Part shown: piece after piece, positions 14,534 through 37,347 of the stretch
Layout of the letters: each line of letters opens with the position of its first letter
How positions within the stretch are numbered: the first letter of the stretch is position 1
IMG/VR virus record: IMGVR_UViG_3300044814_000065
Span: 1 to 41,065 of that record
Strand: one strand, 5' to 3'
DNA: 41,065 nt
From: a virus
Notes under the pieces: model-generated
Told to the model about the DNA's origin: nothing
The model's input: the letters and a program-made list of their open reading frames with translations, nothing else
Databases searched by the model: none
Made by a program: the position numbers and the translations under genes

Positions 14534-16915
14534 ATGTCCACCCTCGTTACCGGACTCGGCGGCAAAGTTTCTGATTTCTTCAAGGGCAAAGACAAGGTTC
14601 TCAGCACCAAAACCGAGAAACCCGACCCCGTAGATCTTGCGCGCGGGTATCCAATTACGGAACCGCTGGAGAAGCGGGTTCTGTGGTTGCTGGATTCAGT
14701 TTACCGCGAGGGCTCGTTCGAAAAGATTCAGTTTGCCCGCAAATGGATGCGCAACGCCCTGTTCTACCAGGGCTATCATGAACTCGAATGGTCGGACATC
14801 AACGTTGCCTGGGATGTACTCTCGCAGGATTCTGGAGATTACGCTTTTCCGAACAACTACTACCGGACGCTGGTTCTCTACGGCGTCAAAGCCTACATCC
14901 AGAACGAACCCCTGATTGAGCCCATCCCGTCGAATGACGATGCGGAAGCGCAGGCGGCTACGAAGGCGGCGAAGACAGCTCTCGAAATCATCAAGCAGAC
15001 GGTGAAGTACGACTACCTCAGAGTTCTCGAAGCCATCAATCTGCGCCTGTTCGGGAATTCTTTCCGCTATGCGTATTACTCCAAAGACCCTCGTTACGGC
15101 TATGTGAGCGCGGCGGTCTATGAAGATCGTGACGTTCTGCTTTCGCCCGGTGGAAGCCAGTGTGGTTCCTGCGGCCCGATGGAAGGAACTCACGATCAGT
15201 GTCCCGGCTGTGGCGGCGCGGTTGAAGCAACGCCTCCAGTTACCAGCAGGCTCCCCACTCAAACTGGATCGGTAAAGTATCCGAAGGGCGAGTTGATGAC
15301 GGAAGCGGTCAACCCTCTCGAAATCTATGTCAGGAGCAGTTCGTATGACCTCTGGCACGCGCCTTTTCTTGTTCGGAACCGGGTTGTTGACCGCATGGGT
15401 TTGCAGTCGGCCTACCCGAAGATCCAACTCGCTCCCAAAGGAGATGAAGGCGGCGGAGAAGCTTACTCGACGGGCGGGGACCTTGGTCTCATCTACATGC
15501 AGTCTCTGGCCGATCTGCCTGGGGACCCAACTCAGTATGCGGCCTGGTACGAACGAGCCACCGCGGCTGCAAAAGCTCTTTTGGTCGAAGGTTGGCTGCG
15601 ACCAAGCCTGTATTTCTTCGATAAAGAGATGGCCAAAAAGTTCCCCGACGGACTCTATGGCGCCAAGACCGGAGACACCCTCTTAGAGGCTAGAAATGAC
15701 ACCATCGAAAACCACTGGACCCACTACGTCTTTATCCCGGTCCCCGGCAGAATCTGGGGTGACGGTGATGACGACATCATTCCAGGACAGCTGAAGCTGG
15801 ACGAGACTGACCGCCTCATCGCACGCAATCAAGGCTACAACTCGGCTCCGATTCTCGGAATCGACTCGCAGCGCATCGACAAAAACAACATCATCAACGA
15901 CCCATCGACTCTCATCGAGGTAAAGGCCGCAGGCAAACCCGTCTCCGACGCCTTCCACCAGATTCAGTCCATGCCGTTGTCGAATGAAACCTGGCAGTGG
16001 AGAAGTTCACACATTCAGGACATGCAGTTTCACTCCAAAGTCTCGCCTGCCGCCGTCGGCCAGCACGAAGAAGGAGTGAACACCTGGGGTGGACAGGAAG
16101 CTGCTTCCGCGAAATCGGATTCCGCTCTGTCACCGCAGTTGGCGCTGTGGAAAACCGCAGACGCTCTCTGGGCCCGTCAGACGCTGGTGCTGGCTTCGGA
16201 GAACTGGCTGGACGAGCGCGTGCATTCGGTGTTTGGCATCAATGGCCGCTGGGAGTTTGAAAAGCTGAAAGGCTCAGCCATCGACATGGACCGGATCAAG
16301 ATTGTGACTCGAGTCCTTCCCATTGATCCTGGCCAGCAAGACTCCATGTCGCAAGCCATTGCTTCCGGGATGCTGGACCCGCAGGACCCGAGAGTCAAAG
16401 CGAAGTCAATGGAGCTGTTTCATCTGCCCAGAGAGCTGGATAACCTCTACGGCGACCAGAAAGTGCAGTGGGAAGAGATTGAGCAGATGAAAAACACGAT
16501 GCAGCCTATTCAACCTGAGCTGATCGTGGACAACGACGCCGTGCATATCGACATCTGCCGCCAGTGGCTGAACTCGGATGAGGGCAGAGACCCCCAGAAC
16601 ATGCAAATCCGTCAGGTAATCAAGATGCACATGCAGGCGCACGTAATGAACCAGATTCGCATGCAGCAGATGCAGGCCATGGCGCAGGGGTCAGGTCAGC
16701 AGGCAGGCGATGCGGCGGCTGGTGGAGCTTCTGGAGGCTCTGGCGGGCCATCTGGGAAGCAGCCTGAGGGCAAGCAGGCTGGCAAGCAAGGCGGGCAAAT
16801 TCCAGCCAACCCACAAGTTCGGCAGCAACGCGCGGAAAAAGGTCAGGCGGCACGGCCTCATAAGCCTCAACCGCCTTCCGGCAATGGCGCGGGAGTACGG
16901 AGAATGACACAATGA
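14534..16915 (+). CDS. Portal protein with zinc-ribbon insertion
   Basis: The 793-residue protein directly follows the terminase block and precedes scaffold and capsid genes. It has portal character: a helical stem region (FEKIQFARKWMRNALFYQGYHELEW), the FPNNYYRTLVLYGVKAYIQ segment typical of large podovirus portals, a wing region with a four-cysteine ribbon (CGSC...CPGC, about residues 209-226), and a C-terminal crown rich in Gln/Gly/Lys (last 110 residues, low complexity). The portal forms a dodecameric ring through which DNA passes. The zinc ribbon is uncommon in portals, although inserted ribbons occur in some large ones. The call rests on size, position and general pattern; no single catalytic motif exists. 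Confidence 0.82.
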   Translation: MSTLVTGLGGKVSDFFKGKDKVLSTKTEKPDPVDLARGYPITEPLEKRVLWLLDSVYREGSFEKIQFARKWMRNALFYQGYHELEWSDINVAWDVLSQDSGDYAFPNNYYRTLVLYGVKAYIQNEPLIEPIPSNDDAEAQAATKAAKTALEIIKQTVKYDYLRVLEAINLRLFGNSFRYAYYSKDPRYGYVSAAVYEDRDVLLSPGGSQCGSCGPMEGTHDQCPGCGGAVEATPPVTSRLPTQTGSVKYPKGELMTEAVNPLEIYVRSSSYDLWHAPFLVRNRVVDRMGLQSAYPKIQLAPKGDEGGGEAYSTGGDLGLIYMQSLADLPGDPTQYAAWYERATAAAKALLVEGWLRPSLYFFDKEMAKKFPDGLYGAKTGDTLLEARNDTIENHWTHYVFIPVPGRIWGDGDDDIIPGQLKLDETDRLIARNQGYNSAPILGIDSQRIDKNNIINDPSTLIEVKAAGKPVSDAFHQIQSMPLSNETWQWRSSHIQDMQFHSKVSPAAVGQHEEGVNTWGGQEAASAKSDSALSPQLALWKTADALWARQTLVLASENWLDERVHSVFGINGRWEFEKLKGSAIDMDRIKIVTRVLPIDPGQQDSMSQAIASGMLDPQDPRVKAKSMELFHLPRELDNLYGDQKVQWEEIEQMKNTMQPIQPELIVDNDAVHIDICRQWLNSDEGRDPQNMQIRQVIKMHMQAHVMNQIRMQQMQAMAQGSGQQAGDAAAGGASGGSGGPSGKQPEGKQAGKQGGQIPANPQVRQQRAEKGQAARPHKPQPPSGNGAGVRRMTQ

Positions 16916-18183
16916 AACGGCTAATCTGGTTGCTCTTGCTCGGCAGCGCCTTTGGGCAGGGGTTCTTCTACTCTCTCCCGCAACCTTACCCCAACACCAC
17001 CATTACCGTCTGTCCTCTGGGAGCGGTTCGGCCGTGTCCCAGCCCATCCAGCATCTTCAACGATGCGGCGCTGACTTCGGCAGTCTTGAATCCATCCAAT
17101 ATTGGACCGGGAGGGCAATTTGGGTTCTACGCCGCCTCAGGTCAGTACACGGTGCAAATGGGGAGTCCGACGAATCAGACTTTCAACATTTCTCTGGGCG
17201 GGGGCGGTGCTACGGTTAGCCCGCTGACCACGAAGGGTGATCTTTTTACGTTCTCCACCGTGAACGCGCGCTTCGGTGTGGGCTCGAATGGGCAGTGCTT
17301 GACGGCGCAGAGCGGACAGGCGACGGGGCTGTTGTGGGCAAGTTGCGGCGGCGGTGCGCCTGGCTTCGATACGATCACCAGCGGCACGAATACGGCGGCG
17401 GCGATGCTTTGCGGAACGGGATGTTCGCTCGGGATAACAGGCACTGGTACGAACATCGCCAATAAAACAGCCTATGTCGCTGGGGCCATCGGTACGCCCT
17501 CCGACACGTTTGCGGCGGATGCGACCACGGGGAGATATCTATCGGCCGCTAGTAATTTGAACTGGATTTGGGAAACTGCTGGGACAACTCAGGTCTTAGC
17601 ATACCGCGGTACAAACACCGGAACCATTGCTAAATCCGGGTTGGTTTTAGCCTCTACGTCGTGTTATCAGTTCGGATCATCTGCCACATTGGATGGAGCC
17701 GCAGATGCCGGGGCGGATAGCGCTTTTTGCAGGGCAGGAGCAGCGGGAGTATATCAACTAACTGGCCCGGCTGGCGCATTTGGCCAGGGCGGCCTATCAA
17801 TGGGGACTCTCACTTTGAGTCCATTACAAGGAGGAATTGGAAGTCCGAGATATTCAACAAGTACAGTTTGTCAGGCAGTTGGAACTTCGGCTAATCCTTC
17901 ACTGGTAGCATGTGGGTCCGCTAACTCGGGTTCGTTTTCTTGCGCCACGACTGCATCCACTGGAACGTGTGTGGTCGCAGTATCCAGTGTACAGACTGCT
18001 TCGGTAATAATTGTTGCGCCGAGCGCCGCCGAAGGCGGGAATCTCGGTGTTACCTGCAACACCGCTCCCACCGGCATCCCGACCATTACACTGGCCTCGA
18101 AGACTGCCAACGTTGGTTTCACTATCAATCTGGGCACCATCGCCGTGAATCCCGAATGCTTTGTGTACTGGATCGTGAACTGA
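16912..18183 (+). CDS. Fibre-like virion protein with Sec signal peptide, 423 residues
   Basis: The ATG overlaps the portal stop (ATGA). The N-terminus MKRLIWLLLLGSAFGQGF is a textbook signal peptide: two basic residues, a leucine-rich core, and cleavage probably after FGQ or near it. The rest is Gly/Ser/Thr/Ala-rich beta structure. It includes the fibre motif TTKGDLFTFSTVNARFGVGS, then GQCLTAQSGQATGLLW (about residues 100-150), common in tail fibres and spikes, plus a cysteine-containing C-terminal domain. A signal peptide on a phage structural-type protein is unusual. It may be a periplasmic or surface decoy, an exported adhesin, or a fibre whose N-terminus only mimics a signal. Confidence 0.75.
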   Translation: MKRLIWLLLLGSAFGQGFFYSLPQPYPNTTITVCPLGAVRPCPSPSSIFNDAALTSAVLNPSNIGPGGQFGFYAASGQYTVQMGSPTNQTFNISLGGGGATVSPLTTKGDLFTFSTVNARFGVGSNGQCLTAQSGQATGLLWASCGGGAPGFDTITSGTNTAAAMLCGTGCSLGITGTGTNIANKTAYVAGAIGTPSDTFAADATTGRYLSAASNLNWIWETAGTTQVLAYRGTNTGTIAKSGLVLASTSCYQFGSSATLDGAADAGADSAFCRAGAAGVYQLTGPAGAFGQGGLSMGTLTLSPLQGGIGSPRYSTSTVCQAVGTSANPSLVACGSANSGSFSCATTASTGTCVVAVSSVQTASVIIVAPSAAEGGNLGVTCNTAPTGIPTITLASKTANVGFTINLGTIAVNPECFVYWIVN

Positions 18184-18192
18184 GGAACCCTA

Positions 18193-19761: not shown

Positions 19762-19806
19762 ATGCCAGCGTTCAACTTGACGGCCGCGCAGCCCTTAATG
19801 AAGATT
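19762..19806 (+). CDS. Major capsid protein, exon 1
   Basis: A GAGAGGAAAA box precedes this ATG; the exon encodes MPAFNLTAAQPLMKI, a typical capsid N-terminus. Without splicing the frame stops three codons later (TAG at 19813-19815). The P1 helix of the group I intron pairs GAAGATT (19800-19806) with GGTCTTT (19815-19821), placing the 5' splice site after T19805 or T19806. The choice of 19806 is favoured by a 3-bp P10 pairing of TGC at the 3' exon with GTA at 19812-19814; splicing after 19805 with the 3' exon starting at 20515 is the in-frame alternative. Confidence 0.72.
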
Positions 19807-20512
19807 TCAAAGTAGGTCTTTCGTGCCAGCGATGGCACGTTCTGGGCTAGGCTGCTCCACGGCAAATCTCTAAAATAGAACTCAGACCTGGTTGAGAAGC
19901 TAATTGCTACTTCAACCCGCGGATTAACACAATGGTTCGCGTTAAACTTGGCCATATCGGTGGACACCCAGACCGGGCAATACCGAGGAAAGACTGACTT
20001 GGCATACCAAAGAAAGTACGGTTGGAGCGGTCAACCTCTAGACGCTACCATTGAACCAACAGAGTCCGAGACGATCTGGGCTGCTGGGTTTTATGAAGGC
20101 GAGGGCTGCGTCCAGAATATCAAGGACAAAGCCAAGGGATTGGTCGTTGTAATCGGACAGAAAGACCCAGAACCGCTTCACTGGTTACGTGATCGTTGGG
20201 GAGGTTCAGTTCGCCTCCGTCCAAATCAAGGAGCCAATAAGACGGGTCTGTGGGTTTGGTATGCCTCAGGAGACAGAGGTCGGAGATTCTTGATGGCGAT
20301 TTATCCGTGGCTTTGGTCACGACGCCGCAACAAGATCCGCGAAGTCTTCGCGTCAGAATCCGTAACGACTGAACGCCAAGCCCTGCTTATTCCTGACATG
20401 AAACGGGAGTTTCCGCAGGTGAAGTTACAGTCTGCTCTGCATGGGAACATGCAGAAGTCGGCAGAAATGCCCGACTCGACCGACAAATTGCAGTAGTCGG
20501 TAGGTAACAGAG
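19807..20512 (+). mobile_element. Group I intron interrupting the major capsid gene
   Basis: Core helices can be drawn by eye. P1: exon GAAGAT with GTCTTT (19816-19821), with the conserved U-G at the splice site. P2: CGTGCC/GGCACG (19822-19827/19834-19839). P3: GGGCTAGGC/GCCAAGCCC (19844-19852/20375-20383, one mismatch). P7: GACTG/CAGTC (20367-20371/20428-20432). P8: GAAAC/GTTTC (20400-20404/20409-20413). P9: CTGCATG-GGAA-CATGCAG (20437-20454), closed by a GNRA tetraloop. The P7-P9 segment closely resembles the end of the phage T4 td intron, and P7 differs there by a compensating base pair. The predicted intron ends in G. P4-P6 were not resolved. Confidence 0.85.
19948..20496 (+). CDS. Intron-encoded LAGLIDADG-like homing endonuclease
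   Basis: The frame runs from a TAG at 19876 to 20496 inside the intron; the start is uncertain (TTG 19948 or GTG 19960, no clear ribosome binding site). The product, up to 182 residues, contains IWAAGFYEGEGCV, a LAGLIDADG-type helix with the catalytic acidic residue. It is followed by LVVVIGQKDPEPL, WLRDRWGGSVRLRP, GLWVWYASGDRGRRFL and LWSRRRNKIREV, the usual order of a single-motif, dimeric enzyme. Its 3' end overlaps the catalytic core (P7 to P9) of the intron, as in other phage introns. It would cut intron-less capsid alleles and drive intron homing. Confidence 0.8.
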   Translation: MAISVDTQTGQYRGKTDLAYQRKYGWSGQPLDATIEPTESETIWAAGFYEGEGCVQNIKDKAKGLVVVIGQKDPEPLHWLRDRWGGSVRLRPNQGANKTGLWVWYASGDRGRRFLMAIYPWLWSRRRNKIREVFASESVTTERQALLIPDMKREFPQVKLQSALHGNMQKSAEMPDSTDKLQ

Positions 20513-21733
20513 TGCAGCAAGCAATTCAATACGGCTGCCGTCCTGTGGAACCGCTACATGGACGGCAAAGGCACGCCAATCTCGAATCGCGGGATGGAGA
20601 TTCCGACGCACTTCACGCCCAACGCCAATTTCTCCTGGTATGGAGATGGCGGAACCTTGCCTTCGGGCGGGTCGGAAGCGCTGGCATCTGCCGTAGTCGG
20701 GTTCTTTAGCTTTGTGCTCTCGGTCGGATTCACCGGCGCGGCTCTCGACGCTGCGGGCTCGGATTCCGTTACTTACGCGCGGGCGCTGGCCTTCAATATC
20801 AAGATGGCCACGATCAACGCCATCAAGTACCTGAACATCTACGCCTTCCTCGATGGCACGGGTGTCTTAGGACTTCTGGGCACCATCGTCACAACCTCGA
20901 CCACCGTCAACTCGACGCTGGTGGCTTCCGGGTCAATTGAAGGCACGCACTGGCTCCGTCCAGGCATGATGATTGCCGTTCATGTCGGCGCAACTTCGGT
21001 TGTCCGTGGTACGGGCACGATCATTTCGATGTCGAACCCGATTGAAGACGCCACGGGTACGACCTTCGTCATCGGGCCGACCAATGTGGCTTTCACTACG
21101 GCGGCTGGAGACGCGATCACGATCACCGCCACCACGGGCGCTTCCGACTCGTTCAACAACGTGATTGCCGGGTTGAAGCTGATTATTGACAATGGCACAC
21201 TGTCAGCGACTTTTCAGAACATCAACCGCGTGACGAACCCGCAATACAATGCCGGAGTCATTTCGCTCACGGGGAGTCCGGCGCTGGCTAGGGACCACCT
21301 GCGCAGGATTCTGGCTTCTCCGCAGATTCTGCAAGGCAAGGTCTCGCCTTCGCTGGAACTGATTTCACATCTTTCTCAGCTCCATGCTTACATGGATATG
21401 GGCTGGACCCTGAAACGGTTCAACGACGCCAACAAGAAACTCGATCTCGGCTACACCGCGGTCGAGTGGGAAGGCTTCCCGTGGATCATCGACACCGACT
21501 GCCCCAAGGATCACATCTTTGGCGTGGACCGCGATCTGATGTTCAAGGTTGTAGCCCGCGAACTGAGTTTTGATGACAGAACCGGTTCGATCCTGCGGCA
21601 GAACCCCTCCGCTACGGCGGGACAGTACGCGGATGCGTACACCGCATTCCTGGAAATGCGCGGTAACATCGGCACTTACGTTTGCAATGCACATACCAAG
21701 CTGCTCGGATTATCAGTTCCGAGCGGGTACTAG
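20513..21733 (+). CDS. Major capsid protein, exon 2
   Basis: Joined in frame to exon 1 this gives a 421-residue capsid protein. The exon starts CSKQFNTAAVLWNRYMDGKG and continues with RGMEIPTHFTPNANFSW and YGDGGTLPSGGSE, a block found near the N-terminus of many HK97-fold capsid proteins. A spine-helix region (YARALAFNIKMATINAIKYL), a beta-rich insertion (residues about 130-215) and the C-terminal domain (YTAFLEMRGNIGTYVCNAHT) follow. Starting translation at the ATG 20558 would drop the conserved FNTAAVLWNRY, which supports splicing. The stop is TAG followed at once by TAA. Confidence 0.85.
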   Translation, partial: CSKQFNTAAVLWNRYMDGKGTPISNRGMEIPTHFTPNANFSWYGDGGTLPSGGSEALASAVVGFFSFVLSVGFTGAALDAAGSDSVTYARALAFNIKMATINAIKYLNIYAFLDGTGVLGLLGTIVTTSTTVNSTLVASGSIEGTHWLRPGMMIAVHVGATSVVRGTGTIISMSNPIEDATGTTFVIGPTNVAFTTAAGDAITITATTGASDSFNNVIAGLKLIIDNGTLSATFQNINRVTNPQYNAGVISLTGSPALARDHLRRILASPQILQGKVSPSLELISHLSQLHAYMDMGWTLKRFNDANKKLDLGYTAVEWEGFPWIIDTDCPKDHIFGVDRDLMFKVVARELSFDDRTGSILRQNPSATAGQYADAYTAFLEMRGNIGTYVCNAHTKLLGLSVPSGY

Positions 21734-21757: not shown

Positions 21758-22258
21758 ATGGCGACACTAGGGCGGCCACCGAAGCCTCACAGGATCGAAT
21801 GTACTAAGTGTGGAACAGTGAATCCGGGAACGGATAAGTTCTTCCCGAAAGATTCTCGAAAACTCACTGGTTTATCTTCGTGGTGCAGGAAATGTAAGAC
21901 AGCTTCGTTTAAAGAGTGGCGGAAAAGGCATCCTATCCAATATGCCGCGACACAGAAGCGAAACCGCGAAAAGAATGGCCGAACCTACGATCTTCGCAAG
22001 CTCTATGGCATCGACGCCCAGATTTACGATGCCATATTGAATGCCCAAGGTGGGGTATGCGCGATCTGCGGAGTACCAGCACAAAACTCTGCCAAGCGCA
22101 GATTGGCTGTAGATCACAGCCATACCACCGGGAGCAACCGAGGGTTGCTCTGTACGATGTGTAATCACGCTTTGGAACGGATCGAAAACGATCCTGACTG
22201 GGGCAATAAAGCTCTCAACTACCTCGCTCGGTATATCGAGCAGACTGTGAAGGGATAA
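21758..22258 (+). CDS. Recombination endonuclease VII-like nuclease
   Basis: The 166-residue protein has an N-terminal zinc knuckle pair (CTKCGTVNPG... WCRKCKTA) and a C-terminal endonuclease VII core: LRKLYGIDAQIYDAILNAQG, VCAICGVPAQ, LAVDHSHTTGSNRGLLCTMC, NHALERI (about residues 85-155). In T4, endonuclease VII debranches DNA before packaging; small stand-alone versions like this are usually homing nucleases. It lies 24 bp after the capsid gene, so the capsid locus is flanked by one nuclease and invaded by another. The family is clear, the role open. Confidence 0.85.
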   Translation: MATLGRPPKPHRIECTKCGTVNPGTDKFFPKDSRKLTGLSSWCRKCKTASFKEWRKRHPIQYAATQKRNREKNGRTYDLRKLYGIDAQIYDAILNAQGGVCAICGVPAQNSAKRRLAVDHSHTTGSNRGLLCTMCNHALERIENDPDWGNKALNYLARYIEQTVKG

Positions 22259-25779: not shown

Positions 25780-28557
25780 ATGGGGCAGAAACCGCCTAGC
25801 AAACCCGCTGCGCCTGCCGAAGTCCTCAGCGCTCTTTCGCTCGGTTATAACACCTATACGGATCCAACTCAGACCAATCCAAAGATGTGGGCGGCGGCGA
25901 CGAACGTCTATTCTGGCGCTTTCTCTTTCATCCAGCGTTGCCGGTTCGCTAACGTGGTCGTGCCCAGTCCACTGACGACCACGTTCTTCACCACGCTAAA
26001 GTACTTCGCTCTGCCGCCATTCACGATCTCGACAACCATTGGCACAATTACCTATACGGGAGGGCTTGTCCCGTTCGCCACTGTGGTTGTGAGTTCTACC
26101 TCGGGAATCGGTCCTGCGGGAAACGTCACCATCGTGGACAACAGCAATGTCTTGTTCAATTCCACATTCCCCATCGGGACCATCGTCAACACAACCACGT
26201 TGACCATCGTTTTTTCGCAGGTAGCGGCGGCGAGCGGATCGGGAGGCACGCTGTCTGGCCTGAATTCTGGTGGGGCTTACCTGATTGCCGATATCAACGG
26301 CAAGCTTTATTCCTACGATACTGGGCTGAATTACCTACAGACGCAGCGGCTCAACCCCTATGTGGACCCATCCGGCGTCGGAAACACGCAACTCAATGGT
26401 CCCTGGTCGCGCGAAGCTCTCGTCAACATCCTCTACGAAATGAATGGCCAGGTAAAGATGGCCGGCAGACTGGCGAACGCCGCCACAATCGAAGGCTGGG
26501 GCTTAGACTCTCCCGACGCTACCCCGCAAATCACGTTGAATGCGGGTACGGCTGTGGCTCTAACCAATATCCGGCGGCAGAATGCCGTTGTCACAGCTCA
26601 CGCCGCCGCACTACCCGCGGGAGTGATTGTAGGGTCCACCAACCCCCTTAACATCACGCTCGTCAGCGACCCCAGCTTCAATGGAACGTTCTTGATCACC
26701 GCCAGCGGCGTTGGTCCCTTCACCTTTACGTGGAGTCAGCTTGGCCAGGACACAGTACTCCTCGCGGGTACTGGGAACATTACCAGCCAAGTCACCAAAT
26801 CGGTGGGCAGGTCTTACGCTTATGCCTGGGAGAACGCCAACAAGAGCCACGTCGGAGCTTTGAGTCCAGTCACGCAGTACATCATTCCCATCAACCAGTA
26901 CATGCAGATTGCGTGCCTCGAACCCGGCACAATCTCCTTCAGCAACGCCTCTCCGATTGTCACAGGGGTGGCAACGTTCTTTACAGCGGCGTGGATTGGA
27001 AGACACATCCTCAGCGGCGTCACGGATGGAGACATTGGACGTGTCTTGTCGGTACAGTCTCCTACGCAACTGACTCTCGCCGCGAATTCCCCGACAACCG
27101 ATGCTGCTCAGGTCTTTCAAGTCTTCGATCCCCAAGCCACCCACATCCGGCTCTATGCCACGGCGGATGGTGGAGCGACCTACTTCCTGATCGCGCGGAA
27201 TGTCTTTAGCCCGTTCCTCGGTTCCTACGGTACGAATTTCGCCGGATTGATCTTCCTCGACTTCGCCAACTCCGAGCCTCCAAGTTTCCCTTTCTCGACC
27301 GAGACTGCGCAGCTCAACAACATCCCTCCGCCGGTGGGAGCGTTTGTCAACGAATTTCAAGGAAGGCTTTGCGTCTTTGGCGTTCCGGGAGAGCCACAAG
27401 CTTTCTTCTACTCGAATGTGGAAGCTACGCTGATTGGCCAGCCGCAGGAATCGTTTGCCCCGTTGAATCAGGTTACGTTGCCGATTCAGAACGCTTCCAT
27501 GAACGGCATGATGGAGCTTCCTGGATCCATGATTATCTGGTCCGACAAGCAGGACATGTTTCGCCTGACAGGATTGCTGACCGACAATCTGGTGGGTGCG
27601 ACGGGCACGCAGCAAGGCGCACAGATTTCAAGATTGCCCTACGCTCTCGGCTGTGCAACTCCGTTCGCTGTGGCAGTGACTTCGTTGGGCGGGTTTTGGC
27701 TGACTCCCAACGATGAAGTCTGGCTCTTTACTGACCGGTACGCCCCAAGGAATATTGGGCGGCCCATTCAGGACATTCTTCTGAGCATGGCTCCTGGGGC
27801 TGAGACTTTGGCTAGGATGGTCTACTACCACACCGCCAACCGCAATTGGTTGCTTCTCATCGTGGCGGCCAACGGCTCAACTTACAACAACACAGTCTTG
27901 GTGCTCGACCTCGATTTGCTCGCGTCCAACGGTGAAGCTTCCTACTACGTCTTCGACATGGCGACGAACTCACCGGCGTGGTGGGTGTTTCAACCCGGCA
28001 CGGCTGATCCTGAGACAGGGGATTGGATACCGCGCTGCGATTCCATTGAAGTGGTCTACGAAACCAGCGGGTTGGTCAGACTCATGTGCGGGCAGGTCGA
28101 TTTGATCCAGGACATTGATTTCCTGATGGGCGGGTTTGGAACGGAGATTGAAGTGCCTAACGGCACAGTGACCTTGCATGCTTTCGGGAACGAGAGTCCT
28201 TTCCTCATCAAGCGGCCTACGTTTGTCCGGTTCAACACCAACCGCGATCCCGCCATGCTGGCGACGGATGGCTGGAGTTTCGCTGTGCAGGGAATTGACG
28301 ACGACTTTTACACGTTCTTCAACCCGCTCGTACTCGATCTGGTTCCGGGAGTGAATGACACGTCAGCTCTTTCCGGGAGTCCTGATTTTACGGGAGGGTT
28401 GGCGTTCCGTCACAGTCCTGAGCTGTTCAGAATTGGCGGAGTGAATTTTGTGATGGGGCGTAGACTGAAGTTTCAAATCAATTTTCCCCCAGCGGCAGGA
28501 TCAAACTTCGCATTCAGAGCGATTCAGTTGGCGTTTGGCGCAAATCCACCAAGTTAG
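25780..28557 (+). CDS. Putative tail nozzle, tail-tubular-B-like
   Basis: At 925 residues this is the largest gene. It is nearly all beta. A proline-rich start (MGQKPPSKPAAPAEVL), a conserved early block (TDPTQTNPKMWAAATNVYSG), Ig-like inserts rich in T/V (residues about 80-150 and 260-330), and a C-terminal half with repeated blades (GRLCVFGVPGEPQAFFYS, MMELPGSMIIWSDKQDMF, GFWLTPNDEVWLFTDRYAP, YYHTANRNWLLLIVAANG) suggest a propeller. Such proteins form the short tail nozzle through which DNA is ejected. The call is by length, fold impression and the neighbouring adaptor gene. Confidence 0.62.
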   Translation: MGQKPPSKPAAPAEVLSALSLGYNTYTDPTQTNPKMWAAATNVYSGAFSFIQRCRFANVVVPSPLTTTFFTTLKYFALPPFTISTTIGTITYTGGLVPFATVVVSSTSGIGPAGNVTIVDNSNVLFNSTFPIGTIVNTTTLTIVFSQVAAASGSGGTLSGLNSGGAYLIADINGKLYSYDTGLNYLQTQRLNPYVDPSGVGNTQLNGPWSREALVNILYEMNGQVKMAGRLANAATIEGWGLDSPDATPQITLNAGTAVALTNIRRQNAVVTAHAAALPAGVIVGSTNPLNITLVSDPSFNGTFLITASGVGPFTFTWSQLGQDTVLLAGTGNITSQVTKSVGRSYAYAWENANKSHVGALSPVTQYIIPINQYMQIACLEPGTISFSNASPIVTGVATFFTAAWIGRHILSGVTDGDIGRVLSVQSPTQLTLAANSPTTDAAQVFQVFDPQATHIRLYATADGGATYFLIARNVFSPFLGSYGTNFAGLIFLDFANSEPPSFPFSTETAQLNNIPPPVGAFVNEFQGRLCVFGVPGEPQAFFYSNVEATLIGQPQESFAPLNQVTLPIQNASMNGMMELPGSMIIWSDKQDMFRLTGLLTDNLVGATGTQQGAQISRLPYALGCATPFAVAVTSLGGFWLTPNDEVWLFTDRYAPRNIGRPIQDILLSMAPGAETLARMVYYHTANRNWLLLIVAANGSTYNNTVLVLDLDLLASNGEASYYVFDMATNSPAWWVFQPGTADPETGDWIPRCDSIEVVYETSGLVRLMCGQVDLIQDIDFLMGGFGTEIEVPNGTVTLHAFGNESPFLIKRPTFVRFNTNRDPAMLATDGWSFAVQGIDDDFYTFFNPLVLDLVPGVNDTSALSGSPDFTGGLAFRHSPELFRIGGVNFVMGRRLKFQINFPPAAGSNFAFRAIQLAFGANPPS

Positions 28558-29824: not shown

Positions 29825-30877
29825 ATGGCGCTCAACCAAATGCAAGACGATCCGATGACCTACGGCGATACCGGCGTAATGCCGCAGACGAATCCTGTAA
29901 CTCCTCCCCCTCCCATGGACCCTATGACTGGCGATCCGATGATGCAATCCATGGTGCAGAACTCGCAGATGGGAGGACAAGCTTTTTCTTCGGACGAAGC
30001 CCGAAGACAGCAACTCGCGCAGCAACTCCAGCAGGCCCGCGGGGAACAGCAAACCATGGCCGACCCCGCAAATCAGCCGAAACGCGGGTTGATGGATGAG
30101 CCTTGGATGAAAATGGCTCCCGTCAAAGGTCAGGGGTTTGGTCACGATGCCGGGAACTTGCTGGGTGATATCGGGAAAGCCCTTTTGATGGGGTTGTCTA
30201 CTTCAGGGATTGGCGAAGGCGTTCAAGAAGCTGTTTACGGTCCTGGAATAGCTCGGCACCGGGAGCAAGCTGGAGCGAAAGCCGCACAGATTGAATCCTT
30301 GCAGAAGCAGTTTGGTGATGAGGGTACGGCGGAAGGCGCTGCTTCGGGGATGGTTTCCAAGCCCATCATGGCGGAGGCGTCACTGACGCGCGCAGCGGCC
30401 TCGACGAAGAATGCGGACACCAACGCCAAGCGGCAGGCTGTGCAGGAAACCCAGGGATTGCAGCGGCTGAAGCAGGGTTGGGACAGGCTCTCTCTTGGTG
30501 AACAGCAGTTGAAGGCTAAACAGTGGTTCGATCAGGCGGTAATTAAGACAGCGCAGGCCAGAATTGACGCTGGGCAGGATGAGAACTCCGCGCGCATTCA
30601 GGGGCAGGAAGACGTTCGTTCCGCGGCGGCGCAAGACGACTGGGTTAAGACACATCCATTTTTGGACTTCATCGGAATCCGGCCCGATATTCAGGCGGCC
30701 GCCGGGGCCCAACCAACAAAATCAGCGGTCAAAGCCGCTCCCCACCAAAATGCTCCACGTGGAGCAAAACCGGTTCCTGCTGGGACGGTGGTCTACGATC
30801 CCGCGGGAAAACCTCATAAAGCAGACGGCAGCGCCCCTCTGCCAAGTGGCTGGTCATTGAGCAAATTGAGCAAATAA
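29825..30877 (+). CDS. Putative internal virion (ejection) protein, 350 residues
   Basis: TAGGAG lies five bases before the ATG. A Met/Pro-rich start (DPMTGDPMMQSMVQNSQMGG), Q/A helices (QQLAQQLQQARGEQQ), a hydrophobic patch (LLGDIGKALLMGLSTSGIG) and long charged helices (RLKQGWDRLSLGEQQLKAKQ) are visible. These mixed helical, Ala/Gln-rich features and the place downstream of the tail nozzle are typical of proteins packed in the head and injected with DNA. The next gene follows with no gap. Confidence 0.58.
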   Translation: MALNQMQDDPMTYGDTGVMPQTNPVTPPPPMDPMTGDPMMQSMVQNSQMGGQAFSSDEARRQQLAQQLQQARGEQQTMADPANQPKRGLMDEPWMKMAPVKGQGFGHDAGNLLGDIGKALLMGLSTSGIGEGVQEAVYGPGIARHREQAGAKAAQIESLQKQFGDEGTAEGAASGMVSKPIMAEASLTRAAASTKNADTNAKRQAVQETQGLQRLKQGWDRLSLGEQQLKAKQWFDQAVIKTAQARIDAGQDENSARIQGQEDVRSAAAQDDWVKTHPFLDFIGIRPDIQAAAGAQPTKSAVKAAPHQNAPRGAKPVPAGTVVYDPAGKPHKADGSAPLPSGWSLSKLSK

Positions 30878-33067
30878 ATGGCTACCCCTGGCTTCACTCC
30901 AGTTGACGAGTCGGCAGGCTTCACGCCGGTAGAGGAAGCTCCGACGACTCCGAAACCCATGGCTGCCCCCATGGCTGACCCAATGACAGGCTCTGTCTCG
31001 AGCATGAGCGCCGCAGAGCCTTCGGCTTGGCAGCGAATTAAATCGGCGTTGCCCATCATCGACCGGGTAGAAACCGGGCTGGGGCAGGCGGGTGCAAGTC
31101 TGGGACTGTCAACGCCCTCCGCCGCCCAAGCCGTAGCCAAACCCCTGCCGGGAATGGACACCCAGCAAGCTATCGCTCCAGAACGGGCTATGACCCCCGC
31201 CGAACGGCAAGCGCATCCAATCGCGACCGGTGCGGGAGAGTTTTTAGGGGGGATGACAACCCCTGAGAACGCAATGCTGACGGGATTGACCGCAGGGCCG
31301 GCCCCTCAAGCGATTGGGCGGGCTCTGGGCGGCGTGTTTAGCGCTCAGGTTCTCAAAGGGGCTTACGACAACTACGCGCCCCTCAGGGAGGCGGCAGACG
31401 CTAAGGATTGGGGAGAAGTCGAGCGGCTTGGAACCCATATGGTTCTTGGCGCGTCAATGGGTCTGCTGGGCATTCGCAGGACCGTTCGCGGCGAGTCGCC
31501 TTATGAGGAACTGTCTCAATCGGGTAGGGAGTTTCAGAGGGTCAAGCAGACCAACCAATCCAAAGAAGCAATTGAGAAGAATGGGGTAGGACTTTACAAC
31601 AAAGTTCGAGATGCGGTCATCACTCACAAAGCAGCTTTGGAAAAACAGGCTTCCGACGCGCTCCAGCCAGTGGTAGACAAAGACAATGCCTCAGGTCAGC
31701 CAGCGATTTCCACAGCCGGAGCCATCAGCGAAGCGGCGAAGACGATTGCGAAGACGGGGTACACGCCGAAGCCTGCTGAAGCAAAACTGCTGAACAAGAT
31801 GCAGGGCGTTTCGGCTGCCGATCAGTATGCGCAAGGCCGAGGGTATAAGAGTTCCGCTGACGCCAAAGCCGATATTGAATCCCAAGCGCCCGGCCGGGGA
31901 ATCTGGGATCAGGAATTGCAGCAGCAAGGGCTGACTGACGATCCGACTACCCATCTTTCGCTCGAGGAAGCCAAGCTTCTGCGCACCGCTGTCGGCCGGG
32001 TAGCCTTTGGCCGTAACGCAGCTCCTGAATCGAAAGCCGTTTTCTCCTCCGCCTACGATCAACTCACGCAGGCGATGAAGGACCGCGTTACCGACCTTGA
32101 AGGCAATTCCAAACGCTTCGACTTCTACAACAACCGGCACAAGATGTCGTTTGAACTCGATAAAGGCGTTGCTGGCGGGATGCTGGACAAACTTCAAGGA
32201 CAGGACCCCAACTCCTCCATTAAGCCGCTGAAAGACTTTTCCTCAGGCAACATCAAAGAAATCCAGCAGCAGATGCGGCAAACCGGAAATCCGCAGCTTG
32301 CCGAGCAACTAGGAAAATCGCAGAAAGACGCTACCGCCTTGACTTCGGCGCACGATGCCGTTAGCGGGAAGTTTGCTGCCGGGGTCTACCGGATGCTTCA
32401 GGCTCATCCGAAGCAAGCGTGGCCAGGACTGGTAACCATGGCCGCTGCGCATGGGGTAGGGTTGCCCTTCCCGTTGCCACAGATCGCTGGCGCTGGAGTA
32501 GCTTCCTGGAATGTAGGCAGGATTGCGAAGGGCGCTGCCGGTGAGATTGGCGGCCGCTTGCAGTCCGAACTCTCGCCGGAGAAGTTCCAGACGCGCACCA
32601 CCCCCATGGGAGACGATTTTGGCCCTGATTCACCCTCAGGAGCCTCCGAGACCCCAAGAGGCCCCTCAGGACCATCCAGCCCTCCGCAAGGCAATACAGC
32701 AGCCGCTGCGGCCTATAGCGGTGGCTTCTACGATCAGGTCAAGGCCGAACATCCTGACTGGACCGTTTCCCAGCAGTTGATGGAAGCCGCCAAGCGCGAG
32801 AACGCTCCAGCCAAGAAATCAGCCGAAGACAGCAATGTGGTTCGGGAACGCGGCGTGGACAACGTAGACCCGAAAGCCGAGAAGGCCGAACGACTCCGCC
32901 AGATCCGCGAGAACCAGCAATACGCGATTGATAATGCCAAAACCACCGGGGAAAGGTCGCAGGCCGTCGCTCGCAGGAGCGGATTCGAGGAGCAGCAGGC
33001 GGGTGGCAAGAGATCCAAAGAACGTAAGGCGGCAGACATTGAGAAGATCAAGACGAGGAAAGGGTGA
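30878..33067 (+). CDS. Putative internal virion (ejection) protein, 729 residues
   Basis: The N-terminus repeats a short phrase: FTPVDESAGFTPVEEAP. A glycine-rich hydrophobic region (GVFSAQVLKGAYDNY, HMVLGASMGLLGIRR) could insert into membrane, followed by long helical stretches with conserved charge and a C-terminal hydrophobic patch near residue 510 (VTMAAAHGVGLPFPLP). The last 100 residues are a charged coiled-coil (DPKAEKAERLRQIRENQQ). Large, helical, partly amphipathic proteins at this position form the ejection apparatus in T7- and P22-like phages. No lytic transglycosylase motif is visible. Confidence 0.58.
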   Translation: MATPGFTPVDESAGFTPVEEAPTTPKPMAAPMADPMTGSVSSMSAAEPSAWQRIKSALPIIDRVETGLGQAGASLGLSTPSAAQAVAKPLPGMDTQQAIAPERAMTPAERQAHPIATGAGEFLGGMTTPENAMLTGLTAGPAPQAIGRALGGVFSAQVLKGAYDNYAPLREAADAKDWGEVERLGTHMVLGASMGLLGIRRTVRGESPYEELSQSGREFQRVKQTNQSKEAIEKNGVGLYNKVRDAVITHKAALEKQASDALQPVVDKDNASGQPAISTAGAISEAAKTIAKTGYTPKPAEAKLLNKMQGVSAADQYAQGRGYKSSADAKADIESQAPGRGIWDQELQQQGLTDDPTTHLSLEEAKLLRTAVGRVAFGRNAAPESKAVFSSAYDQLTQAMKDRVTDLEGNSKRFDFYNNRHKMSFELDKGVAGGMLDKLQGQDPNSSIKPLKDFSSGNIKEIQQQMRQTGNPQLAEQLGKSQKDATALTSAHDAVSGKFAAGVYRMLQAHPKQAWPGLVTMAAAHGVGLPFPLPQIAGAGVASWNVGRIAKGAAGEIGGRLQSELSPEKFQTRTTPMGDDFGPDSPSGASETPRGPSGPSSPPQGNTAAAAAYSGGFYDQVKAEHPDWTVSQQLMEAAKRENAPAKKSAEDSNVVRERGVDNVDPKAEKAERLRQIRENQQYAIDNAKTTGERSQAVARRSGFEEQQAGGKRSKERKAADIEKIKTRKG

Positions 33068-33582
33068 CTCAGCCCATACTGTATTCTGATCGGATGATAG
33101 AAGAATGGCGCGCAGTACTGAACGGATACTACGAGGTATCGAACCTCGGCAGGGTTAGGCGCGACGGTCACGTTTTGAGGAACCGTCCACGAAGCCGTGA
33201 TTGCATTTACCCTTCGGTGCACATATCAATTCACGGCAAAGCTCAACACCAAAACGTCCATCGTCTCGTTGCCGAAGCATTTTTGGGGCCTTGTCCGAAG
33301 CATCATCAAGTAAACCACAAAGATCTCAACAAAGAGAATAACGTTCTCGAAAATCTGGAGTACGTTACCCATGCAGGCAATCAGCAACACGCTATTAGGT
33401 TGCTCGGGAAATGGCACAAGCCGTGGAACGCTAAATTGACACAAGAACAGGTTGGTGAGCTTTGCGAGATGAGATCACGTGGTGCCAGTCTGAGCGTTCT
33501 CGCCTATCACTTCGATGTTAGCGCCGCCGCAATTTATGCTCGTTTACTGAAATCTGGAAACTATCAAAGATTGCCGCATTAA
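33064..33582 (+). CDS. NUMOD4-HNH homing endonuclease
   Basis: Start is a GTG with GAGG upstream, overlapping the previous stop; an ATG at 33094 directly before EEWR is the alternative. The 172-residue product has the NUMOD4 motif EEWRAVLNGYYEVSNLGRVR, a central linker, and the HNH core VHRLVAEAFLGPCPKHHQ, VNHKDLNKENNVLENLEYVT. The C-terminal helix-turn-helix (LTQEQVGELCEMRSRG, LSVLAYHFDVSAAAIYARLL) is the usual DNA-recognition tail. This is a selfish free-standing endonuclease inserted between the ejection gene and the fibre genes. Confidence 0.9.
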   Translation: MTQPILYSDRMIEEWRAVLNGYYEVSNLGRVRRDGHVLRNRPRSRDCIYPSVHISIHGKAQHQNVHRLVAEAFLGPCPKHHQVNHKDLNKENNVLENLEYVTHAGNQQHAIRLLGKWHKPWNAKLTQEQVGELCEMRSRGASLSVLAYHFDVSAAAIYARLLKSGNYQRLPH

Positions 33583-34691
33583 TGGCACCCCCAAGATCAA
33601 AGCCGTGGAGTAAATTTCCAGACGACCCCAACATGAGCGTTGCGGCGAAACAGTGCCTCGATTACATGCTGACCCAGACGAATCAGTTACTTGGCCAAGC
33701 TAACGTTCCACCAGCCTCTAGCGCCTACTCTTTTGGGCCTGACATCATCAATCCCACGACGGCTCAGTTCATCTCGCTTGGGGGCAGGCCAAGCTCAGTC
33801 ACCACGGCTATCACTTACAACGCCGCAGGAACTTCAATCACGTTCTATTGGGACGGGACTAACAGTTCTCAGGAACTCACAATCTACCGCGACGACGATA
33901 CGGTTGTGGGACCGACCATTGTTGGTTCTCCCTTCCTGGTGACGGGCCTCGTCGCAGCAACACGGTACTTCTTTTACCCCTATTGGGACGACATCAACAA
34001 GTTGGTCCGATTTGTCACCATCCCCAATGTTTCTGTGGGAAGTCCTCCTGTAGCATTCACGGCTTATAGCATCAAAGCGCAGCAAATCCAGATCCTGCGA
34101 GAACACATTCCCCTTGCCTCGATTGTAGGGACCTCAGGCATCGTGGCTGGGTCAGGCCCAGGTTCGGCGGGTGGCGGAGGTGGCGGCGGGAGGTCGGGAG
34201 CCACGCCAGGGCCTACAGCTTCAGCTCCAGGAGGAGTCAATGGCGACATTCAATTCAACAATGCGGGAGTGTTTGGCGGAGAAGCTTTAGTCCCACTGGC
34301 GCACGGCGGCACGGATGCCGACCTCTCGCTAACGGGCGGAACGAGTCAGTTTCTTAAGCAGTCCGCCGCCGGGGCGAATGTTAGTGTAGGGCAACCCAGC
34401 GCTTCCGATCTCACCAATGGCACAGTTGGAGTGGGTGCTGTGGTTTTAGCTTCTGCGCTTCCGGCAACCATCAACTTCGCCGACGAGGAGACGCCCGGCG
34501 GCACGATCAATTCCGCCAATCTAATCTTTACGCTGGCGCATTCGCCAAGTCCGGCCACAAGCCTTACCCTCTTCTACAATGGCTTGCTGCAAAAACCCAG
34601 CGGGGCGGACTACACGCTCGCCGGCAGCACAATCACCTTCGTGTCCGCGCCCACAACGGGCTCAACGCTTCTCGCCTGGTACCGCTTCTAG
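33582..34691 (+). CDS. Tail fibre or spike protein, 369 residues
   Basis: Coupled by TAATG to the homing gene. The N-terminal 170 residues (CLDYMLTQTNQLLGQ, TAITYNAAGTSITFYWDG, then fibronectin-like strands) probably attach to the tail. A Gly-rich hinge (GGGGGGGRSG near residue 205) follows. Then comes the fibre repeat LVPLAHGGTDADLSLTGG, TSQFLKQSAAGANVSVG, shared with the next gene and widespread in phage fibres. The end has a beta motif (LTLFYNGLLQKPSGADYTL) like many fibre tips. It probably binds the host receptor. Confidence 0.75.
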   Translation: MAPPRSKPWSKFPDDPNMSVAAKQCLDYMLTQTNQLLGQANVPPASSAYSFGPDIINPTTAQFISLGGRPSSVTTAITYNAAGTSITFYWDGTNSSQELTIYRDDDTVVGPTIVGSPFLVTGLVAATRYFFYPYWDDINKLVRFVTIPNVSVGSPPVAFTAYSIKAQQIQILREHIPLASIVGTSGIVAGSGPGSAGGGGGGGRSGATPGPTASAPGGVNGDIQFNNAGVFGGEALVPLAHGGTDADLSLTGGTSQFLKQSAAGANVSVGQPSASDLTNGTVGVGAVVLASALPATINFADEETPGGTINSANLIFTLAHSPSPATSLTLFYNGLLQKPSGADYTLAGSTITFVSAPTTGSTLLAWYRF

Positions 34692-34692
34692 C

Positions 34693-35865
34693 ATGAAAAA
34701 GTCTCTCCAGTTCGCAGCCGTGCTTTCGGTCGCCATCGTAGCGGCCTTCATCACGCAGATCGATCTCTCGACGCAGGTCCGCGGGCTCTTGCCTCTGGCC
34801 AGCGTGCCCAACCTCCCGGCATCGCAGATCACTAGCGGACAACTCGCCCTGGCGCGCGGCGGAACCAACGCGGACTTATCGGCTACGGGAGGGGCTTCGC
34901 AAGTCGTCCGGCAATCGAGTGCAGGGGCGGCGTTCACGGTGGCGCAGTTGGCATTTACGGATCTCTCCGGATCGGCCTCCGTTGCGCAGATCCCGAACCT
35001 TCCCGCTTCAATCATCACGTCGGGGCAATTGGCTTTAGCCAGGGGCGGGACGAATGCAGATTTGTCGGGCACCGGAGGCGCTTCATTCGTCCTGAAGCAA
35101 ACGAGCGTGGGGGCAGCCGTCACGGCGGCGCAACTAGCCTTTACAGACATCTCCGGCAGCGTGGCGGCTTCCCAGCTTCCGAATCCCACAGCTTCCACAC
35201 TCGGCGGAATTGAAAGCTATGCCGCGGTCTCGAATCAGTGGATCAACGCCATTTCCACTTCAGGCGTACCCAGCTCAACGCAGCCGGATTTCTTAAATTT
35301 GACAAGCGCCCCGTTCCCCTCCGGGGGCGCAGATACCTTTCCGATTCCTGAAGCTTTGGGGCAAGCTGCAAACGTTAACCTCGCTCTCGCCGCCGCAAAC
35401 GCGGGATATTTTGTCAAGGTTCACGTAAACGAGTACATCAACTTCACGAAAGCGACGACCATCCAGCCGAGCGGCACCACGGCGGGAATGAACGTGTTTT
35501 TCGGCTTATACGACCTCAGTCTCAACCGCTTGGTGCAGATCAAATTCACGACCGTCAATCCCGGCGGCGCGACGGTCACGCTGGTTGGAACACTCACCGG
35601 CAACGCCTTCATCAACCCCGGCACCTATTACTGGCTTGTCGCCTGCGACACGGGTTCCACTGTTGGAACCATTCTCGGCGGCCCAACGACCACCTCTTCT
35701 TACATGACCGCGATGAACCTGAACGGTTTCGGTAACGCCTTCAAACTCGGCATCTTGTCCGCCGGAGCGCTGGCGAATCCACTTCCGGCGCTATCGGGTT
35801 TTACGAAGACCACCAGTGGGCAGATGGGAAGCAGCGCCATTGGCGTTGTTTATTTGGAGCCTTGA
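34693..35865 (+). CDS. Fibre-like protein with N-terminal membrane/signal segment, 390 residues
   Basis: ATG 34693, one base after the previous stop, gives a leader-like MKKSLQFAAVLSVAIVAAFI. It has two lysines and a hydrophobic core but no clean cleavage site, so it is a signal peptide or an anchor. Two copies of a fibre repeat follow (ITSGQLALARGGTNADLS..., then IITSGQLALARGGTNADL...), each with LAFTDLSGS or LAFTDISGS, then a beta-rich tip from about residue 180. Together with the genes at 16912 and 35911 it is one of three fibre-like products with export-type N-termini. Confidence 0.68.
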   Translation: MKKSLQFAAVLSVAIVAAFITQIDLSTQVRGLLPLASVPNLPASQITSGQLALARGGTNADLSATGGASQVVRQSSAGAAFTVAQLAFTDLSGSASVAQIPNLPASIITSGQLALARGGTNADLSGTGGASFVLKQTSVGAAVTAAQLAFTDISGSVAASQLPNPTASTLGGIESYAAVSNQWINAISTSGVPSSTQPDFLNLTSAPFPSGGADTFPIPEALGQAANVNLALAAANAGYFVKVHVNEYINFTKATTIQPSGTTAGMNVFFGLYDLSLNRLVQIKFTTVNPGGATVTLVGTLTGNAFINPGTYYWLVACDTGSTVGTILGGPTTTSSYMTAMNLNGFGNAFKLGILSAGALANPLPALSGFTKTTSGQMGSSAIGVVYLEP

Positions 35866-35910: not shown

Positions 35911-37347
35911 ATGAAAAAACTGTTGCTCTTGCTGCTTCTCTCTGTCCCGGTATTTGGACAAAATTTACGCTACGATTCCATCGCCATTGGCCCACGTGGG
36001 CCGATTCCCTTCGCGTCTGTCGGGGTGTGCTCACAACCAGCCAATGTGAACTCCGCTCCCTGTTCTCCACTGATTGCTCTCTGTACCAGCTTCACTTCCT
36101 CTTGTACGCTACCGGGAACAACGACTGCGGACAATCTGGGCAATTTCCACTTTTATGCCCCATCGTCAGCTTTCCCGGTGACGGTGCAAATCTACGGAGC
36201 TCAAGTAGCGGCGCCGTTTGCCTTGCGGGATCAGAACGCCCCAGGAGGTTTCTTCTCAAAATCTACGACCGAGGTTTGTATTGGGACTTGCGCGATGGTG
36301 ATTACGGGACAGATTCAGTTGTTCCAAATCACCTTGACCGGCAACACAGTTGCAAATTCTTTTACTTCAACGGTCGGAGCGCCGGCAACACTCTACTTCG
36401 AGATCAGTCAGGATTCGGGAGGCTCGCATACCTGGACATGGCCTGCGAATTCAATTGGCGGCTGCTCCCCGATTAACTTGGCGGCGTTTTCGACGACCAC
36501 GCAAGCCTTTGTCTGGGATGGGACGAATGCCGTTGCCATCGGGCCTTGCGTGATTGGCGCAGGTCCTTCCCTGCTGACAGGCCCTATCGGAGCGCAGGGA
36601 AATATTCAGACTACGACGCAGTTCATTTCCACCATCGCTTCCGGCACCGCCCCCTTGGTTGTCGCTTCGACCACGCAGGTAGCGAACCTGAACAGTTCCC
36701 TGCTCCTCGGCGGCACCTGGGCGACTCCGGGAACGATTGGCTCAACCACGCCTAGCACAGGAGCCTTCTCCACCTTTCAACTGAATGGCGGGACGATCCA
36801 GACAGCGATGCAAGGAACTGACACTCATCTCCTGAGTGCAGGCACAGTCTCAGGTACAGGGTCCGCTCTCTGTACGGATGCGCAGGGCGGAGCAACGACG
36901 GTCAGTTGTACGACCCCAGTCGGCATTGGTACGCCACAAGCGATCTCCCTTGCGGCCCCTGTAAGTCTTACCGCAAACGTTCAAGCCATCGTGCTCAGCA
37001 AATCGGTCACGTTTCCTTCGGCTGCTGGGAATTACCACGCGGATCTGCGTTCTGGGCTTTGGCTCACGGCAGGGCCGAATGCGTGCGCCACGGAAATCGA
37101 AGATGTGACCAACACCAAAGCCTATGCCTCTGGGAACGCGCAGAACGCCAATGGCTCTGGCTTCATCGGCATCGCCGGCGCAGAGATTACTTCGCAGACT
37201 TACACCGCGGGGCAAGTCGTGACCTTTCGCCTGATCGCACTCTGCAACGCCAACTCTACTGCGGTCGTGGACTGGTCGCTGGTCTCTGGAACACTCTCGC
37301 CACAAGAAGAGAGTTTCTTGCAAATCACTCCGATAGCGGGGAATTAA
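35911..37347 (+). CDS. Fibre-like protein with Sec signal peptide, 478 residues
   Basis: AAGGAAAT precedes the ATG. MKKLLLLLLLSVPVFGQN is a classical signal peptide, ending in the same FGQ as the 16912 gene. After it comes a beta domain with several cysteine pairs (VCSQPANVNSAPCSPL, LCTSFTSSCTLPG, VCIGTCAMV). The carbohydrate-module-like stretch SHTWTWPANSIGGCSPINL follows, then fibre-type repeats (TSTIASGTAPLVVASTTQVA, LLGGTWATPGTIGSTTPSTG) common in tail fibres, and a C-terminal beta domain. Cysteine pairs fit an oxidising periplasm. It could be an exported fibre, a surface-modifying protein, or a superinfection decoy. Confidence 0.74.
   Translation: MKKLLLLLLLSVPVFGQNLRYDSIAIGPRGPIPFASVGVCSQPANVNSAPCSPLIALCTSFTSSCTLPGTTTADNLGNFHFYAPSSAFPVTVQIYGAQVAAPFALRDQNAPGGFFSKSTTEVCIGTCAMVITGQIQLFQITLTGNTVANSFTSTVGAPATLYFEISQDSGGSHTWTWPANSIGGCSPINLAAFSTTTQAFVWDGTNAVAIGPCVIGAGPSLLTGPIGAQGNIQTTTQFISTIASGTAPLVVASTTQVANLNSSLLLGGTWATPGTIGSTTPSTGAFSTFQLNGGTIQTAMQGTDTHLLSAGTVSGTGSALCTDAQGGATTVSCTTPVGIGTPQAISLAAPVSLTANVQAIVLSKSVTFPSAAGNYHADLRSGLWLTAGPNACATEIEDVTNTKAYASGNAQNANGSGFIGIAGAEITSQTYTAGQVVTFRLIALCNANSTAVVDWSLVSGTLSPQEESFLQITPIAGN

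Follow-up and report, generated by a model that had tools for sequence, protein, structure and literature searches.

Fibre/spike-type proteins with predicted export signals and paired cysteines in the virion gene region of a tailed phage

Introduction

Textbook tailed phages assemble every virion part in the reducing cytoplasm; the coat proteins of filamentous phages are virion proteins with signal peptides that are assembled at the membrane and extruded through the envelope. The DNA analyzed here (IMG/VR virus record IMGVR_UViG_3300044814_000065; the whole stretch of 41,065 bases is referred to as the window) belongs, unlike a filamentous phage, to a tailed phage, with terminase, portal and major head protein, and two of its genes, A and C, encode fibre/spike-type proteins that are predicted to be exported. 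A preliminary description of the window had assigned export signals to three fibre-like genes, A, B and C; the three open reading frames (ORFs) are present with the starts and N-termini it described, and the case made below concerns A and C.

The closest described proteins are the tailspikes of phages Pam1 (7EEQ), Pan3 (9VYG) and Sulfitobacter phage phiGT1 and those of P22 type, in which, as in A and C, an N-terminal beta-sandwich of ~100 amino acids (aa) precedes a fibre or beta-helix body. The gene order of phiGT1 (ejection proteins, fibre, spike, and then lysis with the endolysin) is also that of the window, where C likewise lies between the fibres and probable lysis genes. However, the phiGT1 spike has neither a signal peptide nor the VC..PC cysteine pair, whereas the corresponding domain of A and C is preceded by a predicted cleavable signal and contains such a pair, which is conserved. 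WceF of Pantoea stewartii, a secreted tailspike-like enzyme of the stewartan cluster that cleaves exopolysaccharide outside the cytoplasm, resembles A and C (whose export is a prediction) in combining an export signal, a P22-like head domain and a spike-type body (PMC7949094). It differs in being the product of a bacterial gene in an exopolysaccharide cluster with a Tat signal, whereas A and C are phage late genes with a Sec-type signal and many paired cysteines; the beta-helix glycanase body of WceF is not found in A or C (no Pfam match), and a polysaccharide-cluster context is absent from the window, where the neighbors are virion genes, and was found only at two genome loci, L039 and L043. 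The genes at these two loci, with signal and head-binding domain, are possible Sec-exported counterparts of WceF.

Signal peptides cut before glutamine, as predicted for A and C, follow the Q-rule described in Bacteroidetes (PMC5837995), and five function-unknown genes of Porphyromonas gingivalis phages follow this rule of their host (PMC10367356); these precedents lie in another phylum, and the cargo here is recognizable as fibre/spike proteins. In the open-access literature searched, no published report was found of exported phage tailspikes or of a split assembly line in tailed phages; tailspikes, signal peptides and secreted spike-like enzymes are each known, and their combination in tailed-phage virion operons is apparently new.

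Results

Signal peptides were evaluated with a home-made score (not SignalP) that looks for a positive n-region, an uncharged core of 9 residues and small residues at -3/-1. The score flags four of the 32 plausible genes of the window, namely A, B, C and a membrane protein gene at 37358, and composition-preserving shuffles reach the observed value in 29/2000 cases for A, 58/2000 for B and 4/2000 for C. Predicted cleavage in A follows MKRLIWLLLLGSAFG (..AFG/Q, mature protein beginning QGFF) and in C follows MKKLLLLLLLSVPVFG (..VFG/Q, beginning QNLR); these are the two FGQ cleavage-like sites noticed earlier. Both proteins have the features of Sec and signal peptidase I substrates (n-region, core and small -3/-1 residues near the start of a domain), as well as the conserved, paired cysteines of proteins that fold in an oxidizing compartment: the mature forms contain 14 (A) and 12 (C) cysteines, in agreement with the several pairs reported for two of the proteins, and B and the ordinary fibre at 33582 contain one each. 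In the two close relatives of the window, G002 (IMG/VR 3300019886_000099) and G001 (3300047508_000185), the signals of A and C persist by way of synonymous and conservative changes; the leader of A in G001 has changed codons and several changed residues but retains the hydrophobic core and the GQ. All 12 mature cysteines of C are retained in G002 (89% identity) and in G001 (76%), and the middle parts of both proteins have been exchanged among the three viruses to give mosaics. Because the relatives keep the signals, their occurrence by chance in A and C is less likely.

The third export signal of the preliminary description, that of B, is doubtful. The protein begins with MKKSLQFAAVLSVAIVAAFITQIDLS, which provides a hydrophobic core with a weak site (VAA/FI); having neither cysteine pairs nor a convincing cleavage site, B was not counted as exported. 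Its counterpart in G002 begins with a different hydrophobic N-terminus, MTRKYLIVAVVAALLSVAFITQIDLS, and G001 lacks B as a gene of its own, with the GGT.ADLS repeats placed instead within a signal-less fibre of 567 aa. Since B keeps only the hydrophobic character of its N-terminus, and its repeats are signal-less in G001, it is left out of the claim.

The fibre motifs mentioned for these genes were found (LTTKGDL in A, GGTNADLS twice in B), and the fibre/spike nature of A and C is supported by a Pam1/Pan3-like N-terminal domain (N-domain), a probably TNF-like tip at the C-terminus of C, the mosaic middle parts and the position of C at a tailspike locus. The N-domains of A and C are related to each other (hhalign E 2e-5), begin directly after the cleavage site and have the pattern VC-(6-9)-PC..P, with GN[FY].F[YW]A.PG.Y further on. 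Single-protein scans found close relatives only; two scans with small profiles added a single distant relative, L020, from which this general motif was derived. A degenerate DNA pattern of the N-domain that is blind to the signal matched 16 viral contigs and 11 genomes, and a 15-row N-domain profile matched 71 viral loci; the domain has two forms and is widespread among metagenomic viruses and in genomes of Acidobacteriota. Matches of isolate phages to A and C are confined to the fibre parts, and one exported form of the N-domain has no match among isolate phages.

An AlphaFold model of the C N-domain (predicted local distance difference test, pLDDT, 94) was compared by Foldseek with solved structures, where it matches the head-binding domain of the Pam1 tailspike (7EEQ_A) and the Pan3 tail spike (9VYG) with template modeling (TM) scores of 0.60-0.65, probabilities of 0.98-0.99 and E about 0.2, and the same two proteins are found by a PDB-sequence profile search at E 0.012-0.015, ranked behind one unrelated protein (NOMO2), such E-values being weak on their own. 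In the viral library the domain also matches parts of phage pectate-lyase-type proteins, and it is present in the signal-less tailspike of the cultured phage phiGT1 (independent E-value, i-E, 1e-10). It sits N-terminal to a fibre/spike body, consisting of fibre motifs and tips in A and C and of a beta-helix in the relative L097. These results support a relationship between the N-domain of A and C and the tailspike head-binding domain of the cyanophages Pam1 and Pan3. The model of the C tip (pLDDT 78) appears TNF-like and matches the Bdellovibrio Bd2734 tip (8OKW; E 9.5e-4, TM 0.46), the BC2L-C lectin (2WQ4) and a Photorhabdus TNF-like lectin (9IB7); these are cellular adhesins or lectins, and the likeness is at the level of the fold only, with 10-14% identity to the C tip. 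A Pfam search of A and C recognized no enzyme domain and no beta-helix, and searches of PHROGs and Pfam recognized neither N-domain. A weak match of 13 of the 34 family members to 'polysaccharide deacetylase' (phrog_24355) was not accepted as an indication of function.

Signal and cysteine pair occur together. In a set of 85 different N-domain sequences a signal is present in all 68 that have the canonical cysteine pair and in 3 of the 17 that lack it (Fisher p 1.8e-13); signals were called with a predictor other than SignalP, and the set includes fragmentary loci and a few spurious ORFs among those listed as exported. The association persists when sequences are clustered at 80% (34/34 versus 3/16, p 1.6e-9) and at 65% (p 5e-6). 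In alignments, the mature N-terminus of exported forms (Q.xRYD) coincides with the plain Met start of signal-less forms (M..xRYD). In a tree built with the cysteines masked, the signal state changes at least three times, and the cysteine pair follows in 2.8 of 3 contrasts on average and never does the opposite, three independent contrasts being too few for significance or a p-value alone. Of 58 clusters of mature proteins behind a signal with an [AGS]/Q site, 50 show even cysteine numbers (p 8e-9), compared with 113 of 214 control ORFs (other ORFs with at least four cysteines), as expected from full pairing into disulfides. As read from sequence, this is strong indirect evidence that proteins of the A/C type are exported into an oxidizing compartment and would fold outside the cytoplasm.

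The 11 genome matches of the N-domain DNA pattern are all from Acidobacteriota, and the host of the window virus, which is a soil virus, is probably, though this is not proven, a member of the same phylum. The domain occurs in 4 of 297 sampled Acidobacteriota genomes and is therefore an accessory trait there. Glutamine at +1 is frequent, being found in 6 of 39 predicted signal sites in 400 kb of Acidobacteriota DNA and is commoner in phages (13/31); a strict Q-rule of Acidobacteriota is not supported as general.

Near-complete viral contigs with the N-domain encode several large proteins predicted to be exported, often consecutively (up to six in G313, three each in G315 and G312, two in G321), and in these four contigs every large fibre/spike-like protein bears a signal. 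G312, G321 and G313 also encode a signal-less anchor of ~210-235 aa that is homologous to the N-terminal part of the ordinary fibre of the window and lacks its tip; in G315 no signal-less fibre-type protein was recognized. The relatives predicted to be exported include one with a GDSL esterase domain and one beta-helix protein. Another contig (IMGVR_UViG_3300010398_000448; L033/L105) carries adjacent N-domain paralogues, of which one has signal and cysteines and two have neither. In G313, an ORF directly after the major head gene (L138, 8619-10334), a position beside head genes like that of A, encodes a signal peptide and 8 mature cysteines.

The arrangement also occurs in Tunturi 1 and 2, which are cultured, plaque-forming phages of Acidobacteriota (PMC11924767). 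Their gp12, gp13, gp14 and gp17, encoded between tail and endolysin genes and in some cases annotated as tail fibre, tail spike or virion structural protein, all begin with signal peptides and have 20, 10, 20 and 32 or 34 mature cysteines, respectively; gp12 contains the N-domain (i-E 8e-8). The predicted mature forms of gp12, gp13 and gp17 begin with QTAAYPNG, QTTGAPLN and QTCTQTF. Tunturi 3 was isolated on the same host strain, Tunturiibacter psychrotolerans X5P2, and its fibres are signal-less with few cysteines, which indicates that the trait belongs to phage lineages and not to the host. Mass spectrometry, signal peptides and tail fibers are not mentioned in the main text of the Tunturi paper (PMC11924767). 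Some phage proteins are instead lipoprotein-like (L189 and Tunturi_2 gp72 and gp79): gp72 retains a remnant of the N-domain, and gp79 ('tail protein') resembles an SGNH esterase behind a lipobox and a Pro-rich linker.

Discussion

A and C look like receptor-binding proteins because of their head-binding-type domain, their mosaic bodies and, in C, the probably TNF-like tip. We propose that they serve as receptor-binding proteins of fibre/tailspike type, that they are produced together with the late virion genes, and that each carries a Sec signal peptide that signal peptidase would cleave before the glutamine; N-domain and tip would then fold and form disulfide bonds in the periplasm. Since the inner membrane would separate them from the virions during assembly, lysis is the simplest meeting point: when holin, endolysin and spanins open the envelope, ready-made trimers could meet the virions assembled in the cytoplasm and dock onto them by way of the N-domain. 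The sequences show signal-like N-termini, a cleavage motif that is conserved, cysteine pairs linked to the signal, a head-binding-type fold and a tailspike locus; from these features we infer that the proteins are indeed cleaved and exported, form trimers and dock when the cell lyses, and we put the probability that A and C are exported receptor-binding spikes of this kind at about one half. It is conceivable, and suggested here with some reserve, that in a group of Acidobacteriota tailed phages all receptor-binding spikes mature in the periplasm with disulfides and the virion is completed only at envelope rupture.

Several observations weigh against docking at lysis. The window has a signal-less fibre with a tip of its own, so that A and C need not be the receptor binders of this virus, and in the metagenomic virus G324 a signal-less fibre that has a head-binding domain is accompanied by a separate run of exported proteins. 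Gene A lies between the portal and scaffold genes, away from the tail locus, and dilution after lysis would hamper docking. WceF is a secreted enzyme that retains a P22-like head domain although no virion is involved (PMC7949094), and two Acidobacteriota genomes carry genes with signal and N-domain beside glycosyltransferases.

Much of this is what one would expect if proteins of the A/C type were exported and disulfide-bonded but did not belong to the virion, acting instead elsewhere outside the cytoplasm (periplasm, cell surface or medium). As lectins, or as enzymes that trim polysaccharide, they could release progeny from slime, hide receptors (including the decoys proposed earlier) or exclude other phages. 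WceF, with its Tat signal, P22-like head domain and beta-helix in an exopolysaccharide cluster, is the precedent (PMC7949094); in the Acidobacteriota loci L039 and L043 a signal and the same N-domain precede a large repeat body, beside glycosyltransferase and FkbM methyltransferase genes; exported relatives include the GDSL esterase and the beta-helix protein, Tunturi_2 gp79 and gp72 resemble lipoproteins, and A and C could be additions to the signal-less fibre that the window retains. However, a non-virion role would leave G312, G313 and G321 without any large signal-less receptor-binding protein, the genes are embedded in virion operons and have overlapping starts, and Pfam recognizes no enzyme domain in A and C. 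We consider such a role, the main alternative, possible, with the odds somewhat against it. Decoys, surface remodeling and membrane assembly, the roles suggested in the preliminary description, look alike by sequence and cannot be told apart on that basis; the head-binding domain, and the genomes whose only signal-less fibre is a short anchor, favor virion-bound proteins over pure decoys.

Membrane assembly would be expected if the N-termini were not cleaved and served as membrane anchors or as hydrophobic ends inserted in the virion, the proteins staying or assembling at the inner membrane. This would suit B, whose hydrophobic N-terminus has neither a Q site nor cysteine pairs, is conserved in character in G002 and is equaled in score by 58 of the 2000 shuffles; but A, C and their family share [AG]/Q sites and short cores of about 10 residues, and the domain begins directly after the site, at the point where signal-less relatives have their plain Met start, which makes uncleaved N-termini improbable. 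Recent host-derived or lysogenic-conversion cargo is very improbable: the genome matches of the signal-blind pattern are all from Acidobacteriota and some lie in cellular polysaccharide loci, but so few of the sampled genomes have the N-domain, several genome copies adjoin phage-type head or adaptor genes (L040, L042, L044), position and neighbors are conserved across related viruses, and the operon is present in the plaque-forming Tunturi 1 and 2.

If spikes do mature in the periplasm and dock at lysis, the place and time at which host specificity is added change, the exported spikes gain a many-disulfide chemistry that cytoplasmic fibres do not use, and co-infecting phages could share spikes through two-step assembly. 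Should the proteins not belong to the virion, they still represent a large unrecognized class of phage-secreted, surface-acting proteins in a very abundant soil phylum. With cultured phages of one host strain that have the operon (Tunturi 1 and 2) or lack it (Tunturi 3), the question is open to direct testing.

Gene map and other features of the window

Coordinates are collected in Table 1. The start of gene A overlaps the stop of the portal gene (ATGA), and its position after the portal is kept in G002 and G001; no A-like gene follows in L006 and L007, whose portals are more distantly related. The ordinary fibre gene is followed by B, C and then the probable lysis region. A family search with the candidate ejection proteins gave no match.

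Table 1. Coordinates of virion-related genes and of the parts of A and C in the window
Feature	Position	Strand	Basis or remark
Terminase large subunit	11264-12811		
Portal	14534..16915	+	By position, size and relatives; 3' end translationally overlapped by gene A
Gene A, fibre/spike-type protein, predicted exported	16912..18183	+	423 aa, 14 mature Cys
Signal peptide of A (inferred)	16912..16956	+	MKRLIWLLLLGSAFG/Q
Head-binding-type N-domain of A	16957..17205	+	Cys34-Cys42 pair (VC..PC); hhalign, family alignments, profile match
C-terminal tip of A	17911..18180	+	Six Cys kept in G001 and G002; middle part swapped
Probable tail nozzle-type protein	25780..28557	+	Weak PHROG tail fibre match
Probable ejection proteins	29825..33067	+	Upstream of fibre locus; position as in phage phiGT1
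Ordinary signal-less tail fibre	33582..34691	+	phrog_18673, E 4e-7; ~200-aa anchor domain and fibre tip
Gene B, GGTNADLS fibre repeat protein	34693..35865	+	390 aa, hydrophobic N-terminus, 1 Cys; export doubtful
Gene C, fibre/spike-type protein, predicted exported	35911..37347	+	478 aa, 12 mature Cys
Signal peptide of C (predicted)	35911..35958	+	MKKLLLLLLLSVPVFG/Q
Head-binding-type N-domain of C	35959..36249	+	AlphaFold pLDDT 94; Foldseek to Pam1/Pan3
C-terminal tip of C, probable TNF/C1q-like jelly roll	36931..37344	+	Model pLDDT 78

The gene for the major head protein (phrog_14242, E 1e-25; region 19762-21733) is split twice, into segments encoding MPAFNLTAAQPLMKI (19762-19806), YFNPRI (19908-19925) and SKQFNTAAV.. 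(20516 on), and the same gene is unsplit in G002. The inserts are probably introns; an Rfam search of them gave no match, and the second carries a LAGLIDADG-like ORF (19948-20496; Pfam E 0.005). Other endonuclease genes of the window lie at 21758-22258 and 33064-33582, the types being endonuclease VII (E 4e-20) and HNH_3/NUMOD4.

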